64,000 nucleotides of DNA from Halorientalis marina (GTDB lineage Archaea; Halobacteriota; Halobacteria; Halobacteriales; Haloarculaceae), in contig NZ_CP095487.1 in assembly GCF_023028345.1 (NCBI RefSeq), positions 1,984,001 to 2,048,000 of the forward strand, written 5' to 3'. This document shows, piece by piece, positions 28,045-60,235 of the stretch (position 1 is its first letter; every line of letters starts with the position of its first letter). Both the position numbers and the translations under genes were made by a program. Below the pieces are notes generated by a model. The model saw only the letters and a list, made by a program, of their open reading frames with translations, was not told the DNA's origin and did no database searches.

Positions 28045-28725
28045 ATGCTCACCGGGCTCCGCTGGCTGGCGCTCGAAGTCAAGTACCTCGACCGCGCGCA
28101 ATCGTTCTACGAGTCGTTTCTCGACCTCGAAGCCGTCCGGGAGACGGCCGACGAGGTGGCGCTCGCGGCCGGGGACACCGACCTCGTCCTCCGGCGACCG
28201 ACAGCCGTTCCCCGCGGCGGCCTCCACACGCATTACGCGCTCGCGACTCCGTACGACGCGTACGACACTTGGTACGAACGGCTGAACGAGTCGTTCGACC
28301 TCGTCGAGCACCAGTTCGGCGACGCGAAGTCGCTGTACTTCTACGACCTCGAAGGCAACTGCGTCGAGATCGGCCAGCGGGGCGGCGAGGGCAACGGCAT
28401 CACCGGCCTGTTCGAGGTAGTGCTGGAGGTCGCGGACCTCGACCGTGCGGAGTCGTTCTACCGCGCGCTGGGCCTGGAGGTGATGGGGCGCGGTGACGAG
28501 CGCCGGCGCGTCCGACTGACTGCCGGTCCCTTCGACCTGGAACTCTGGGAGCCACAACTCGGGCTGGCGGACGGGCGCGGCGGCGTCCACGTCGACCTCG
28601 GGTTCGAGACGGCGGACCCGGACGAGGCCCGCGAGGCTATCGCCGACGACGCGCTCGCTGTCGAGGACCTGACGGACGGCGTGCGCGTCACCGACCCGGA
28701 CGGCCACGTCCTGACGTTCCGGTGA
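28045..28725 (+). CDS. two-domain VOC (glyoxalase/dioxygenase superfamily) protein
   Basis: A 226-residue protein made of two vicinal-oxygen-chelate domains: residues 1-110 (LRWLALEVKYLDRAQSFYES to YDLEGNCVEIGQRGG) and 120-226 (GLFEVVLEVADLDRAESFYR to VRVTDPDGHVLTFR). Each shows the betaalphabetabetabeta pattern. Metal ligands (His and Glu) can be guessed but not assigned. Members include extradiol dioxygenases and glyoxalase-like enzymes; the substrate is unknown. 'cgattaagacc' about 28 nt before the ATG suggests a leaderless promoter. Confidence 0.82.
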   Translation: MLTGLRWLALEVKYLDRAQSFYESFLDLEAVRETADEVALAAGDTDLVLRRPTAVPRGGLHTHYALATPYDAYDTWYERLNESFDLVEHQFGDAKSLYFYDLEGNCVEIGQRGGEGNGITGLFEVVLEVADLDRAESFYRALGLEVMGRGDERRRVRLTAGPFDLELWEPQLGLADGRGGVHVDLGFETADPDEAREAIADDALAVEDLTDGVRVTDPDGHVLTFR

Positions 28726-28753
28726 GCGGCGGCATCGGTCGCCGGCGGACCGC

Positions 28754-29044
28754 TCACAGCCGGTCGGTGTCGATGACGACGCCCGGCGGCGCGACGATCA
28801 GGAAGTCGCGAAAGCGCATGAGCTCGCCGCCGGCCTCCGTGATCTCGCGGGCGAACCCCGCGGCGAGTTCGTTCACGTCGCCTTCCACCGAGAGGACGAG
28901 GACGGCCCCGGACTCTACCTCGTCGATCCACTCCTCGTCCGGCGTCGACCCGTCGAGCACCCCCAGGACGATCCGTCGGGACTCGCCGTCGTCGGTCTCC
29001 ATCTGGTCCTCGACCGCCTGCAGGTCGAGGTCGATGTCGCTCAT
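28754..29044 (-). CDS. DUF5779 family protein
   Basis: A 96-residue haloarchaeal protein. MSDIDLDLQAVEDQM at the N-terminus, SRRIVLGVLDGSTPDEEWIDEV and GAVLVLSVEGDVNELAAGFAREI match the family as I know it. It is soluble, probably alpha/beta, and its function is unknown. The start is fixed by the ATG at 29042-29044, as the longer frame reads into the divergent leuA promoter. It shares its 5' region with leuA. Confidence 0.75.
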   Translation of the reverse strand: MSDIDLDLQAVEDQMETDDGESRRIVLGVLDGSTPDEEWIDEVESGAVLVLSVEGDVNELAAGFAREITEAGGELMRFRDFLIVAPPGVVIDTDRL

Positions 29045-29136
29045 ATCCCCGTTCTGGCGGCCGGCCCGCAAAAATCCACCTCTCCGGCCCGACGCGACCG
29101 TGCCAATCGAACCCATGCGCGCTGTTCGGTAGATAG

Positions 29137-29144
29137 TTTTATAT
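29137..29144 (+). promoter_or_regulatory. TATA box of the leuA/branched-chain operon
   Basis: TTTTATAT at 29137-29144 is the best TATA element in the 100 bp between DUF5779 and leuA. A haloarchaeal TATA box usually lies 25-28 nt before the transcription start, which predicts a start near 29166-29170. That places the in-frame GTG of leuA (29147) upstream of the transcript and the out-of-frame ATG at 29173 just inside it. Confidence 0.6.
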
Positions 29145-29146
29145 GT

Positions 29147-30400
29147 GTGAGCGGGCTTGATTCGGGTGTAATATGTCCAACTCCAACGAGGGCACGTCGG
29201 GTTCCCCGGCGGATCGAGTTCTTCCAGGGCACACTGGATTCCACTTCTGAAATCGACGAAGCACGGATTTTCGATACCACGCTCCGCGACGGTGAGCAGT
29301 CGCCTCGCACGTCGTTCAGCTACGACGACAAACGCGAGATAGCGGCTGTACTGGACGACATGGGCACCCACGTCATCGAGGCGGGGTTCCCGGTCAACTC
29401 GGACGCCGAGTTCGAGGCCGTCCGAGACATCGCGGACGCAGCAACGCGCAGCACGGTCTGTGGACTGGCGCGCGTCGTCGATGCGGACGTCGAGGCGGCG
29501 CTGGACTCGGGGGTCGACCTCGTCCACGTGTTCGTCTCGACCAGCGACGTGCAGTTGCAGGACTCCATGCACGCGACCCGCGAGGAGGCGAAACAGGCCG
29601 CGGTCGAGTCGGTCGAGCGTGTCACCGAGGCCGGCGTCGAGTGTATGTTCTCGCCCATGGACGCGACGCGGACGGACGAGAGCTTCCTGATCGACGTCGT
29701 CCAGGCCGCCGACGAGGCGGGTGCCGACTGGGTGAACATCCCGGACACCTGCGGGGTCGCCACGCCCCGGCGGTTCTACGACATGGTCGAGAAGGTCGTC
29801 GACGCGATCGACGCGAGCGTGGACGTCCACACGCACGACGACTTCGGCCTGGCGGCGGCGAACGCGCTGTCGGGCTACGAGGCCGGTGCGATGCAGGCAC
29901 AGCTGTCGGTCAACGGCATCGGCGAGCGTGCGGGCAACGGGGCCTACGAGGAAGTCGTGATGGCCCTCGAGTCCCTGTACGACGTGGATACCGGCATCGA
30001 CACGACCCGGATCACCGAACTCTCCCGGATGGTCGAGGAGAAATCGGGGATTCCGGTGCCGGCGAACAAGCCGGTCGTCGGCGAGAACGCATTCTCACAC
30101 GAGAGCGGGATTCACGCCGCCGGCGTCATCGAGAACTCCGACACCTTCGAGCCGGGGGTCATGACCCCGGAGATGGTCGGGGCCTCGCGGGAACTGGTCC
30201 TCGGGAAGCACACGGGCCAGCACTCGGTCCGCGAGCGGCTGGTCGACGCCGGGTTCGACCCGACCGACGAGGAGGTCCGGGAGGTCACGCGGCGCGTGAA
30301 GGACTACGGCGCCGAAAAAAAGCGGGTGACGATGACGGAACTGGAGCAGTTCGCCCGCGAGGTCGGCGTCAGCGAACCCGACGAGGAGGTCAGGGTATAA
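29147..30400 (+). CDS. leuA: 2-isopropylmalate synthase/citramalate synthase (LeuA/CimA); 5' end uncertain
   Basis: An alpha-isopropylmalate-synthase-family enzyme, 417 codons from the GTG at 29147. It condenses acetyl-CoA with pyruvate or 2-oxoisovalerate. RIFDTTLRDGEQSPRTSFSY (residues 41-60) is the catalytic, metal-binding start of the HMGL-like TIM barrel, DVHTHDDFGLAAANAL holds the two metal-binding His, and NGIGERAGNGAYEEVVMAL the second signature. The length is that of the form without the C-terminal allosteric domain, so CimA is possible. No in-frame ATG exists before Met66. The GTG lies upstream of the transcript predicted from the TATA box, and the real start may be reached by frameshifting (see the ORF at 29173). 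Confidence 0.85.
   Translation: MSGLDSGVICPTPTRARRVPRRIEFFQGTLDSTSEIDEARIFDTTLRDGEQSPRTSFSYDDKREIAAVLDDMGTHVIEAGFPVNSDAEFEAVRDIADAATRSTVCGLARVVDADVEAALDSGVDLVHVFVSTSDVQLQDSMHATREEAKQAAVESVERVTEAGVECMFSPMDATRTDESFLIDVVQAADEAGADWVNIPDTCGVATPRRFYDMVEKVVDAIDASVDVHTHDDFGLAAANALSGYEAGAMQAQLSVNGIGERAGNGAYEEVVMALESLYDVDTGIDTTRITELSRMVEEKSGIPVPANKPVVGENAFSHESGIHAAGVIENSDTFEPGVMTPEMVGASRELVLGKHTGQHSVRERLVDAGFDPTDEEVREVTRRVKDYGAEKKRVTMTELEQFAREVGVSEPDEEVRV
29173..29250 (+). CDS. 25-codon ORF overlapping the leuA 5' end in another frame
   Basis: ATG at 29173, 29 nt after the TATA box, opens a frame of 25 codons (MSNSNEGTSGSPADRVLPGH at its start) ending in TGA at 29248-29250. The stop context is UUC-UGA-A, and leuA continues in the +1 frame as GAA-ATC-GAC, precisely where homology to other LeuA begins. 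Possible roles are a leader peptide, an upstream ORF that gates leuA by reinitiation, or the true N-terminus of LeuA joined by +1 frameshifting at the UGA. Its amino acids are not branched-chain-rich. Nothing here proves translation. Confidence 0.4.
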   Translation: MSNSNEGTSGSPADRVLPGHTGFHF

Positions 30401-30458
30401 CCCTCTCCTCCGGTCGCACACGCCCGCGAGTGACGCTCGGGCGGGTGCGACTCGGAAG

Positions 30459-30466
30459 AATTATAC
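30459..30466 (+). promoter_or_regulatory. TATA box for the ilvB leader transcript
   Basis: AATTATAC at 30459-30466 follows the purine-rich 'cggaag', a BRE-like context. Its centre is 30 nt before the ATG of the leader ORF at 30493, so transcription would begin a few nucleotides before that ATG. This argues that the ilvB-leuB genes have a promoter of their own besides read-through from leuA. Confidence 0.6.
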
Positions 30467-30492
30467 CACTCCGCAGATATCCATCAATCACG

Positions 30493-30576
30493 ATGCCACC
30501 GCGCGCCTGGTCCGGGCGAGTGCCCCCGACCAGCGACGCGAGCGATCTTCTGGCGATCATTGTAGGGGCAGCCTAG
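30493..30576 (+). CDS. putative ilv leader peptide (27 codons)
   Basis: A short ORF with ATG at 30493 and TAG at 30574-30576. Its C-terminal part is DASDLLAIIVGAA, with Leu-Leu-Ala-Ile-Ile-Val in a row just before the stop. Its promoter predicts an almost leaderless mRNA, so the ORF should be translated. The last codons form the 5' arm and loop of a perfect hairpin (30561-30584). A ribosome starved for Leu, Ile or Val would halt on that arm. This is the design of a bacterial ilv attenuator peptide. The start of ilvB follows 118 nt after the stop. Confidence 0.6.
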   Translation: MPPRAWSGRVPPTSDASDLLAIIVGAA

Positions 30577-30584
30577 CCCCTACA
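30561..30584 (+). terminator. 9-bp hairpin at the end of the ilv leader ORF, candidate attenuator
   Basis: Arms TGTAGGGGC (30561-30569) and GCCCCTACA (30576-30584) pair perfectly around a 6-nt loop that holds the leader ORF's last codon and most of its TAG. The stem has five G-C pairs next to the loop. There is no run of T after it, only a pyrimidine-rich stretch (30585-30593), so it could act on termination through a factor, or as a switch for a further structure. A second hairpin follows at 30613. Confidence 0.5.
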
Positions 30585-30612
30585 TCACCCTCTCAGTCGA
30601 CGGTAGCGGACT

Positions 30613-30629
30613 GCTCCGAACATCGGAGC
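30613..30629 (+). terminator. 7-bp hairpin in the ilvB leader, possible terminator
   Basis: GCTCCGA (30613-30619) and TCGGAGC (30623-30629) pair perfectly around ACA and are followed by 'gtatttgag', a short T-rich stretch. It lies between the leader ORF and ilvB and could be the terminator of an attenuation system or part of it. No complementarity between this hairpin and the upstream one was worked out. Confidence 0.4.
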
Positions 30630-30694
30630 GTATTTGAGTCGTCACGGACTTCCAGCCGACAACGGACCAGCAGCCAACACATGGAGGACACAAC

Positions 30695-32491
30695 ATGAGC
30701 GAACGAGCACAGAAACCGCACGCGGACGAGGTCGAGTCCGAGGCCGAGAGCGAGACTCGGACCGAGCCCGAGGGCGAGAGCCACGTCGAACCCGTCGAGA
30801 CGGGTGCCGACGCGGTCGTCGCCGCGCTGAAAAACGCCGGCGTCGAGACCCTCTTCGGCGTGCAGGGCGGGGCGATCATGCCCGTCTACGACGCGTTGTA
30901 TAGCGAGACAGATATGAACCACATCACGATGGCCCACGAACAGGGCGCGGCCCACGCGGCCGACGCCTACGGCATCGTGACCGGCGACCCGGGCGTCTGT
31001 ATGGCGACCTCGGGCCCGGGCGCGACGAACCTCGTGACCGGCCTGGCCGACGCCAACATGGACTCGGACCCGGTCATCGCCCTGACGGGCCAGGTGCCGA
31101 CGAACTTCGTCGGCAACGACGCCTTCCAGGAGACCGACACCATCGGCGTCACCTCGCCGATCACGAAACACAACATCTTCTCGGACAGCCCCCACGACGT
31201 CGGCGACGACGTGGGAACCGCCTGGGCGCTGGCAAAGGAGGGCCGGCAGGGACCGACCCTGGTGGACCTCCCGAAGGACACGACCCAGAACGAGACCGAC
31301 GCCGAACCGGGCGAACCGACGACGCCGGACACGTACAATCCGCCCGAGGAGGCTGACGCGGGGATCGTCGAGGCGGCCGCCGAGTGCCTCGCCGAGGCCG
31401 ACCGCCCGGTCATCCTGGCCGGCGGTGGCGTCATCAAGGGCGAGGCCAGCGATGAACTCCGGGCGTTCGCGATGGAGTACGAGATTCCGGTCATCACGAC
31501 GATGCCGGCCATCGGTGCCTTCCCCGAGGAACACGACCTCTCCCTGGAGTGGGCGGGGATGCACGGCACCGGCTACGCGAACATGGCTATCACGATGACC
31601 GACGCCATGTTCGCCATCGGGACGCGCTTCGACGACCGCCTGACCGGTGGCGTCGACTCGTTCGCGCCCGACGCGGAGGTCATCCACTGCGACATCGACG
31701 CGGCCGAGATCAGCAAGAACGTCGAGGCCGACTACCCGCTGCTGGGCGACGCCGCGGCGGTCATCGAACAGATGGACGCGGCGATGCCCGGCGCGCCCGA
31801 CGTCGCGGAGTGGCGCGAGCAGTGTGACGAGTGGAAAGAGCAGTACCCGATGGAGTACGATATGCCGGAGGACCGGCCGCTCAAGCCCCAGTACATCGTC
31901 GAGCAGTTCGACGAGGCGACGCCGGACGGCGACACAATCGTCACGACAGGCGTCGGGCAACACCAGATGTGGGCCTGCCAGTACTGGATGTTCTCCGAGC
32001 CCCGGACGTGGGTCTCCTCCCACGGCCTGGGGACGATGGGCTACGGCCTGCCGTCGGCCATCGGCGCGAAGATCGCCGCCCCGGACAAGGAGGTCGTCTG
32101 CTTCGACGGCGACGGCTCGTTCCTGATGACGAGTCAGGAACTCTCCGTGGCGGTGCGGGAGAACCTCGACATCACGGTGGTCGTCCTGAACAACGAGGCG
32201 GTCGGGATGGTCCGCCAGTGGCAGGACGGCTTCTACGAGGGCCGCCGCATGGCCTCGGAGTACCCGTGGATCCCGCAGTTCGACAAACTCGCGGAGGCCT
32301 ACGGTGCCCGCGGCTGGCGGCTGGAGGACTACGACAACGTCGAGGAGACGATCGAGGAAGCCATCGAGTACGACGGCCCCTCGGTCGTCGACGTTATTAT
32401 CGACCCCGCGGAGAACGTCTACCCGATGGTGCCGTCCGGGGGCGACAACGGCCTGTTCGCCCTGAACGAGGACCACCTGGAGGAGATCTGA
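30695..32491 (+). CDS. ilvB: acetolactate synthase, large subunit
   Basis: A 598-residue thiamine-diphosphate enzyme that makes acetolactate or acetohydroxybutyrate. After a disordered acidic start (residues 1-32) come TGADAVVAALKNAGVETLFG and GAIMPVYDALY, MAHEQGAAHAADAYG (catalytic Glu), and VCFDGDGSFLMTSQELSVAV with NNEAVGMVRQWQDGFYEGRR, the ThDP-Mg site. GGAGG at 30683-30687, 7 nt before the ATG, is a Shine-Dalgarno site, unlike most genes here, consistent with a long leader. A 5-codon ORF (ATG at 30681) ends by ATGA overlap at the ilvB start. Confidence 0.96.
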   Translation: MSERAQKPHADEVESEAESETRTEPEGESHVEPVETGADAVVAALKNAGVETLFGVQGGAIMPVYDALYSETDMNHITMAHEQGAAHAADAYGIVTGDPGVCMATSGPGATNLVTGLADANMDSDPVIALTGQVPTNFVGNDAFQETDTIGVTSPITKHNIFSDSPHDVGDDVGTAWALAKEGRQGPTLVDLPKDTTQNETDAEPGEPTTPDTYNPPEEADAGIVEAAAECLAEADRPVILAGGGVIKGEASDELRAFAMEYEIPVITTMPAIGAFPEEHDLSLEWAGMHGTGYANMAITMTDAMFAIGTRFDDRLTGGVDSFAPDAEVIHCDIDAAEISKNVEADYPLLGDAAAVIEQMDAAMPGAPDVAEWREQCDEWKEQYPMEYDMPEDRPLKPQYIVEQFDEATPDGDTIVTTGVGQHQMWACQYWMFSEPRTWVSSHGLGTMGYGLPSAIGAKIAAPDKEVVCFDGDGSFLMTSQELSVAVRENLDITVVVLNNEAVGMVRQWQDGFYEGRRMASEYPWIPQFDKLAEAYGARGWRLEDYDNVEETIEEAIEYDGPSVVDVIIDPAENVYPMVPSGGDNGLFALNEDHLEEI

Positions 32492-60059: not shown

Positions 60060-60235
60060 TGGGGTCGGAGGGATTTGAACCCCCGATCGACTGATATCTC
60101 CGGTTGCGCCTCGGAACTCCAGAGGGTCATCAGCGCGACCGATGATCAGTCGGTCGCTCAGTATATCAGTCTGGAGTCTCGTCCCGGGCGCCAGCCTCTG
60201 GAGTCAGTCGCCATGCCGGGCTTGGCCACGACCCC
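60060..60235 (-). tRNA. tRNA-Trp (CCA) with a 102-nt intron
   Basis: Reading the minus strand, exon 1 (60198-60235) starts GGGGTCG and ends in the loop CTCCAG, and exon 2 (60060-60095) starts ATCAGT, has T arm GGGGG-TTCAAAT-CCCTC and ends CGACCCC plus A. Acceptor ends pair over 7 bp, the D arm is GCCA/TGGC, and the anticodon stem ACTGA pairs with TCAGT. The anticodon is CCA. CCA is not encoded. The intron sits after position 37, the place of the haloarchaeal tRNA-Trp intron, and matches its known length range. Confidence 0.9.
60096..60197 (-). ncRNA. tRNA-Trp intron acting as a box C/D guide RNA
   Basis: The intron has a C-type box (TGATGA) and D-type box (CTGA). ACTGATAT just before ATACTGA is complementary to exon 2 ATATCAGT and, by the box D plus five rule, points at U39. 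CTCTGGAGT before CCGA is complementary to exon 1 ACTCCAGAG and points at C34. In Haloferax volcanii the equivalent intron guides 2'-O-methylation of C34 and U39, so the same is inferred here. One D-type box is degenerate (CCGA). Confidence 0.75.

Follow-up and report, generated by a model that had tools for sequence, protein, structure and literature searches.

A conserved leaderless leader ORF and hairpin before haloarchaeal ilvB, a probable ribosome-mediated attenuator

The gene ilvB of haloarchaea is preceded by a compact leader unit, in which a short and apparently leaderless open reading frame (ORF1) places isoleucine and valine codons at the foot of a hairpin and its stop codon within the loop. 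This unit is best read as a device for ribosome-mediated attenuation, through which the supply of branched-chain aminoacyl-tRNAs probably controls ilvB. The element is real and widespread within the haloarchaea, being found before ilvB in 159 of the 163 regions open to assessment, and in 151 of the 155 that are distinct. It is described here from a window of 64,000 nucleotides of Halorientalis marina DNA (contig NZ_CP095487.1), to which all coordinates refer, and from its comparison with other haloarchaeal loci.

Within the window the leader unit sits in the gap between a LeuA-type gene, which ends at 30400 on its 5' side, and ilvB, which encodes the large subunit of acetolactate synthase (30695-32491, + strand; TIGR00118 above cut-off) and whose product, compared with the 80 top-ranking named loci out of 314 stretches encoding a relative, comes nearest to the IlvB of Halorientalis salina (83% identity). 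Downstream of ilvB follow ilvN and then ilvC, with leuC, leuD and leuB assigned after ilvC by position and ORF reading only. The LeuA-type protein obtains its top profile scores from 2-isopropylmalate synthase models, yet stays under every curated cut-off shown, and it may for this reason be a citramalate synthase instead. Between leuA and the leader promoter lies a long GC-rich inverted repeat (30414-30452), possibly the leuA terminator, which also gives a weak chance match to Rfam mir-H2.

ORF1 (30493-30576, + strand) comprises 27 codons, from the ATG at 30493-30495 to the TAG at 30574-30576, and encodes the peptide MPPRAWSGRVPPTSDASDLLAIIVGAA, whose C-terminus Leu-Leu-Ala-Ile-Ile-Val-Gly-Ala-Ala directly precedes the stop. 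A TATA box, TTATACC, is located at 30461-30467 (+ strand), and given its distance to the ATG the expected transcription start is therefore the start codon itself. The last codons of ORF1 encode the 5' arm of a perfect 9-bp hairpin (30561-30584, + strand; TGTAGGGGC at 30561-30569, loop AGCCTA at 30570-30575, GCCCCTACA at 30576-30584), the TAG reaching from the end of the loop one base into the 3' arm, and the Ile-Ile-Val codons ATC ATT GTA, of which ATT and GTA are rare, stand at the foot of this hairpin (30556-30564, + strand). ORF1, its TATA box at leaderless distance, the hairpin and the stop in its loop, as well as a Shine-Dalgarno site for ilvB (GGAGG, 30683-30687, before the ATG at 30695), had been pointed out in the initial annotation and are read directly in the sequence. 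A folding energy of -19.4 kcal/mol was obtained for the 40-nt hairpin region (z = -4.3, 0/200 shuffles equal or better), while a 61-nt stretch around the hairpin gave z = -2.45, with 5/200 shuffles as stable. An upstream hairpin within ORF1, CTGGTC ... GACCAG (30507-30533, + strand), is seen in the sequence; the stretch 30494-30560 that holds it has a z of -1.98, and at the same place 16 Haloarcula-like loci show a hairpin with 10 consensus pairs, 5 of them formed by more than one standard pair type.

The comparison set was assembled from the 80 named loci just mentioned, which ranked highest among 314 stretches encoding a relative, and from 30 loci obtained by searching 392 genomes, of which L082 belongs to the window's own genome and 29 (L083-L111) were kept; together with the window these make 110 regions, 108 of them unique. 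To them were added 30 loci from 59 matching genomes of family f4, which we take to be the Haloferacaceae, and 19 used loci hand-picked from other families of the 392-genome search. The total of 157 regions includes 155 with the core, 147 being distinct around it, and the locus counts given here ignore relatedness. L119 and L120 are counted through a pattern widened after inspection, L154 was placed by hand, the variants L126, L252, L253 and L254 were identified by eye, and L042, which begins inside ilvB, falls outside the assessable set. Of 99 genomes, 83 matched a strict pattern of the unit and 7 its reversed control, a few of the 83 matches being probably due to chance. Examination of 7 of the 16 genomes negative for the strict pattern yielded the variants L252-L254 and four regions without a leader, L255-L258 (families f9 and f11; IlvB 59-61% identical), in which ilvB lies close behind leuA.

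These alignments point to an element built for reading by the ribosome. An ATG with a TATA-like element 20-34 nt on its 5' side, which is a loose pattern, is found in frame with the hairpin core in 127 of 147 distinct loci and out of frame in 7 (2 and 5 loci by frame); by the same loose pattern it is absent in 19 loci, L039 having an out-of-frame one only. The length of ORF1 is mostly 21-33 codons. As in leader-peptide attenuators, a translatable short ORF lies between promoter and operon. Its stop codon is TAG in 130 loci, TAA in 12 and TGA in 5, and 136 of 147 loci have it 12-15 nt from the core, where it falls within the loop or touches it; in 10 others it is found just 3' of a hairpin that persists. 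Such a variation of stop type at a constant position is difficult to account for unless ORF1 is translated. L159 has lost the loop stop (TTGGGC vs TTGAGC in L147), and its ORF ends 90 nt past the core. The in-frame translation logic, the rare cognate codons, the hairpin and the placement of the stop, present mostly in one copy per genome, are established by this comparison.

The body of the peptide behaves differently from that of a conserved protein. Over 39 disjoint pairs of loci, 126, 128 and 128 substitutions were counted by codon position, and the codon changes of the ORF1 frame (69 synonymous, 225 non-synonymous) match those of the other two frames (71/216 and 69/217), indicating no purifying selection on the body in this three-frame comparison. 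Such lack of constraint is as expected for a leader peptide, and ORF1 would accordingly seem to be a reading device and not a protein; it weakens the small-protein reading, but it also leaves no direct coding signal. Short ORFs are common, and 16 uORFs among 97 long 5'UTRs of Haloferax volcanii were taken as small proteins (PMC4983044), so ORF1 might be a small functional protein or a chance ORF lying over structured RNA. With no amino-acid constraint on the body and a frame tied to the hairpin, this is the least credible of the readings weighed here.

The share of Leu, Ile and Val is 34.8% over the 8 codons that precede the core and 10.1% earlier in the ORF. The core codon is GTA in 147 of 147 loci, and the codon preceding it is ATT in 107, ATC in 37, GTA in 2 and CGC in 1. 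Within the 8-codon stretch preceding the core, ATT serves for 82 of 112 Ile, GTA for 17 of 134 Val and CTT for 50 of 163 Leu residues, vs a background of 9.6%, 2.2% and 0.7%, respectively, drawn solely from seven genes of the window. Codons for the amino acids that the operon produces, often rare ones, are therefore found at the control point, as an attenuator requires. The conservation of a short ORF with Leu, Ile and Val codons across haloarchaea, which had been proposed beforehand as a check on the initial annotation, was strongly borne out. Where the Ile before GTA is replaced, it is by Val in L119, L120 and L254, by Leu in L253, and by Arg in L126, L154 and L252, in which Ile stands one or more codons upstream.

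Some nascent peptides, TnaC and SpeFL among them, halt translation at their stop codon upon sensing a small molecule, and the C-terminal Ile-Val-Gly-Ala, found near the stop in most loci, might sense such a signal in the same manner. We consider this quite improbable, since the peptide body is free to change, the Ile can be replaced by Val, Leu or Arg, and Gly-Ala by Gly-Val, Gly-Gly, Gly-Pro or Arg-Ala. Roles of the peptide and of the RNA are nonetheless inseparable at this end of ORF1, because the bases of GTAGGGG are fixed too.

Indeed, the GGGG:CCCC stem is nearly invariant across loci, and its G run comes directly after the GTA codon in 146 of 147 (one base later in L154), a geometry by which a ribosome at the sensor codons can block the hairpin. 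Compensatory changes in the stem, another check proposed in advance, were encountered only as a few balanced ones (GGGCC/GGCCC in L052, L154 and L252; GGGGCC/GGCCCC in L037 and L126), a weak pass, since a stem that hardly varies leaves little room for covariation. The invariance of GTAGGGG exceeds what pairing or codon choice demands. A loop length of 3-9 nt depends on how many of the inner pairs are counted, and the spacing between GGGG and CCCC is used in its place: it is 8 nt in 123 of 147 loci, 5 or 6 nt in 20 and 9 nt in 2, L052 and L154 having runs other than GGGG and CCCC.

A near-invariant half-site, the prevailing spacing of 8 nt and the usually single copy per genome would also suit a DNA operator, GTAGGGGC-N-GCCCCTAC being then a palindromic repressor site just 3' of the start. 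This possibility appears very remote, considering that (i) 22 of 147 loci have spacings of 5, 6 or 9 nt, which would rotate the half-sites around the helix, (ii) the right arm frequently fails to keep its outer bases, with the A:T pair beside the G run kept in 96 of 147 and the G:C pair three bases out present in 36 of 147, and (iii) the reading frame and the choice of stop codon require translation.

Downstream of the stem, a second hairpin with a short T-rich tail had been taken as part of the attenuator. The inverted repeat itself exists (GCTCCGA-ACA-TCGGAGC, 30613-30629, + strand), but the tail GTATTTGAGT makes a poor U-tract, and its role as a terminator found no support: the z of its region is -0.94, with 30/200 shuffles as good, it is not conserved, and the consensus fold of a 12-sequence Halorientalis-type alignment contains no helix for it. 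Of the attenuation initially suggested, coverage of the 5' arm by a stalled ribosome would follow from geometry and might in turn change ilvB expression; the second hairpin as terminator is not supported. Base composition over the 147 loci instead draws attention to the spacer 3' of the stem (30585-30600, + strand, in the window), where the 16 nt after the C run are G-poor (0-19% G per position, <8% at 13 of 16) and T peaks at 45-53% from +11 to +13 nt after the C run. T runs of at least 4 within 40 nt were counted in 32 of 147 loci (shuffled mean 13.7, max 22), the window having none, and no strict U-tract follows the hairpin in the 147 loci, only this weak T peak. Archaeal terminator rules differ from the hairpin-plus-U-tract scheme, and bacterial pause hairpins lie ~11 nt from the RNA 3' end. 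As the spacing of the T peak resembles this distance, a pause at the T peak is plausible, whereas a strict terminator is not evident.

No antiterminator pairing common to the alignments of five lineage groups was found, the main stem alone being shared; direct-masking attenuator designs work without an antiterminator. In the Natrinema-like group alone among the five, the codon region pairs with the start of a second upstream ORF (uORF2), in a helix that is taken as unproven. Searches against Rfam at gathering score returned one tRNA and nothing else in the whole window, nothing near any cut-off in its positions 28600-30900, and no matches in 20 ilvB loci plus 10 more loci (ilvB, pheS, trpS). 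The tRNA gene (60060-60235, - strand) carries an insertion of ~100 nt in its anticodon region, presumably an intron.

Attenuation would then operate in the following manner. The start codon of ORF1 would also be the point where transcription begins, and a ribosome would load on the leaderless 5' end of the RNA and trail the RNA polymerase. When Ile- or Val-tRNA runs short, this ribosome would wait at the rare ATT and GTA codons, a shortage of Leu-tRNA acting via the Leu codons upstream, and, by standing over the G-rich 5' arm, would keep the hairpin open, allowing the polymerase to go on into ilvB. With charged tRNAs available, the ribosome would get to the stop in the loop and depart, the hairpin would close behind a polymerase located at the T-rich spot ~12 nt downstream, and the closed hairpin would cause pausing or termination, perhaps with the help of a termination factor. 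A ribosome at the stop covers the stem too, and timing would therefore be needed. We infer in this way the stalling, the masking and a control at transcription rather than at ilvB translation. Several observations stand against attenuation: there is no real U-tract and no shared antiterminator, 19 of 147 loci are without the TATA-spaced ATG, and the stop lies 3' of the hairpin in 10 loci and 90 nt after the core in L159.

The same sensor might have another output, either ilvB translation, through uORF2 and a coupled start, or exposure of the G-poor leader to a termination or cleavage factor. The missing U-tract favors such an output, and so does uORF2 (30681-30698, + strand; MEDTT and stop), which includes the GGAGG and whose TGA overlaps the ilvB ATGA. 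ORFs of this type, with TGA over ATGA or GTGA, occur in 79 of the 101 loci (from 149 scanned) in which the script recognised such a start, a raw count. Likewise, 101 of 147 loci have a box 3' of the stem, G[CTA]A[CT]CGN1-3YY (e.g. GCACCGTTTTC), located 17-37 nt past the C run, compared with a mean of 8.9 and a maximum of 16 in mononucleotide shuffles, for a motif defined post hoc and tested on the same data; the window is without its strict form. Against such an output, no pairing of a hairpin arm with the ilvB start region is common to the five groups, and the T peak is placed where a pause hairpin needs it. We therefore regard another output as unlikely and retain attenuation at transcription as the preferred reading.

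Comparable leaders were detected before other genes. At pheS, 20 of the 30 loci scanned (L162-L191, with L170 as the example from the window's genome) carry a short ORF in which 3 or more Phe fall within 8 residues, vs 1 of 30 on the opposite strand; its typical peptide is MASE...GFGFFFA followed by the stop. Many pheS leaders are followed by a structured-looking stretch, GGTGGACTC...GACGAAACC and CGGAACCGCTAACTGACC. At trpS, a peptide of W-R-W type is shared by 11 of 30 loci (L192-L201 and L207), with ADS next in 9 of the 11; the argument relies on this sharing and not on the count of a crude scan (13/30 vs 7/30 on the opposite strand), which is weak alone. The Trp codons lie within a hairpin with both arms coded by the ORF in 6 of 11 predicted folds (L192-L195, L200 and L207), with paired changes in L195 and L200. 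A Trp leader at trpC was discarded, the crude scan giving 11/29 vs 7/29 on the opposite strand and no shared peptide.

Translation of haloarchaeal leuA, for its part, seems to require a +1 frameshift at a Leu codon. In the window, a leaderless ATG opens MSNSNEGTSGSPADRVLPGHTGFHF and its stop at 29173-29250, and the LeuA frame from 29216 (EFFQGTLDSTSEI...) is without a start there. A near-invariant site, GAGTTCTTCC[AG]GGG, is present in 76 of 81 leuA sources, and in 75 of these 76 the ATG selected is offset from the LeuA frame by one base, the script having taken an inner in-frame ATG in L002. No start in the LeuA frame exists between the ATG and the site in 69 of 76, while one does precede the site in 7 (L002, L017, L040, L043, L057, L062 and L070). 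The putative frameshift site reads CGA GTT CTT CCA, and among the 146 Leu codons of seven window genes CTT is used once, being so rare that leucine shortage could drive the frameshift. Two recoding reviews, in their accessible parts, do not contain it (PMC8211752, PMC5009743). The window LeuA is also without the LeuA allosteric domain PF08502 (LeuA_dimer), which the LeuA fragments of L255 and L257 have; this small sample, two of the four regions without a leader vs the window LeuA alone, fits a displacement of control from LeuA allostery to translation. It is conceivable, though we advance it tentatively, that haloarchaea possess a general ribosome-read sensing of amino acids, with leaderless ORFs at ilvB (Ile/Val/Leu), pheS (Phe) and trpS (Trp) and the frameshift at leuA, and that this sensing as a whole replaced allosteric LeuA feedback. 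If so, the frameshift would tie LeuA to the supply of leucyl-tRNA, and the polymerase involved would be the eukaryote-like one of archaea.

In bacteria, attenuation through leader peptides is textbook knowledge, and in the enterobacterial ilv, leu, his, trp and phe attenuators a ribosome stalled at codons for the product amino acid blocks a hairpin. The haloarchaeal unit resembles them in its cognate codons placed for hairpin blocking and in its counterparts at pheS and trpS, and departs from them in having no shared three-segment antiterminator, an archaeal polymerase and a leaderless mRNA. No description of leader-peptide attenuation in archaea was found in the open-licence PMC literature, which does not cover subscription papers. 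A haloarchaeal cis element of the leucine pathway, the leuA-Halobacteria RNA motif, was reportedly described by Weinberg and colleagues in 2017; it is located at leuA, while the present unit is at ilvB, and no Rfam family reached the gathering score in the leuA and ilvB regions of the window or in 20 other ilvB loci. For H. volcanii, dRNA-seq uORFs are listed at pheS and at a tryptophan--tRNA ligase gene (PMC4983044 Table 2), a table that is without ilvB and whose uORFs are read as small proteins, 'attenuat' and 'leader peptide' being absent from the text.

The closest resemblance is to the candidate ilvB leaders of actinobacteria (Corynebacterium, Mycobacterium and Streptomyces), for which PMC1262725 describes a short Ile/Val/Leu ORF overlapping a hairpin before ilvB, as here. 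These have a poly-U after the hairpin and a bacterial host, in contrast to the absent U-tract and archaeal host of the haloarchaeal unit, which is further distinguished by its leaderless start, its stop in the loop and its nearly invariant Ile/Val-GTA. A look-alike ilvB leader of Streptomyces coelicolor, in which mutation of the codons had no effect according to the same source, is by analogy a warning for the haloarchaeal case. Should attenuation be the right reading, the coupling of archaeal transcription and translation would be so tight that a ribosome can guide a eukaryote-like polymerase, laboratory haloarchaea would offer a genetically tractable test case, and the logic of attenuation known from bacterial leaders would seem to have arisen independently in two domains.
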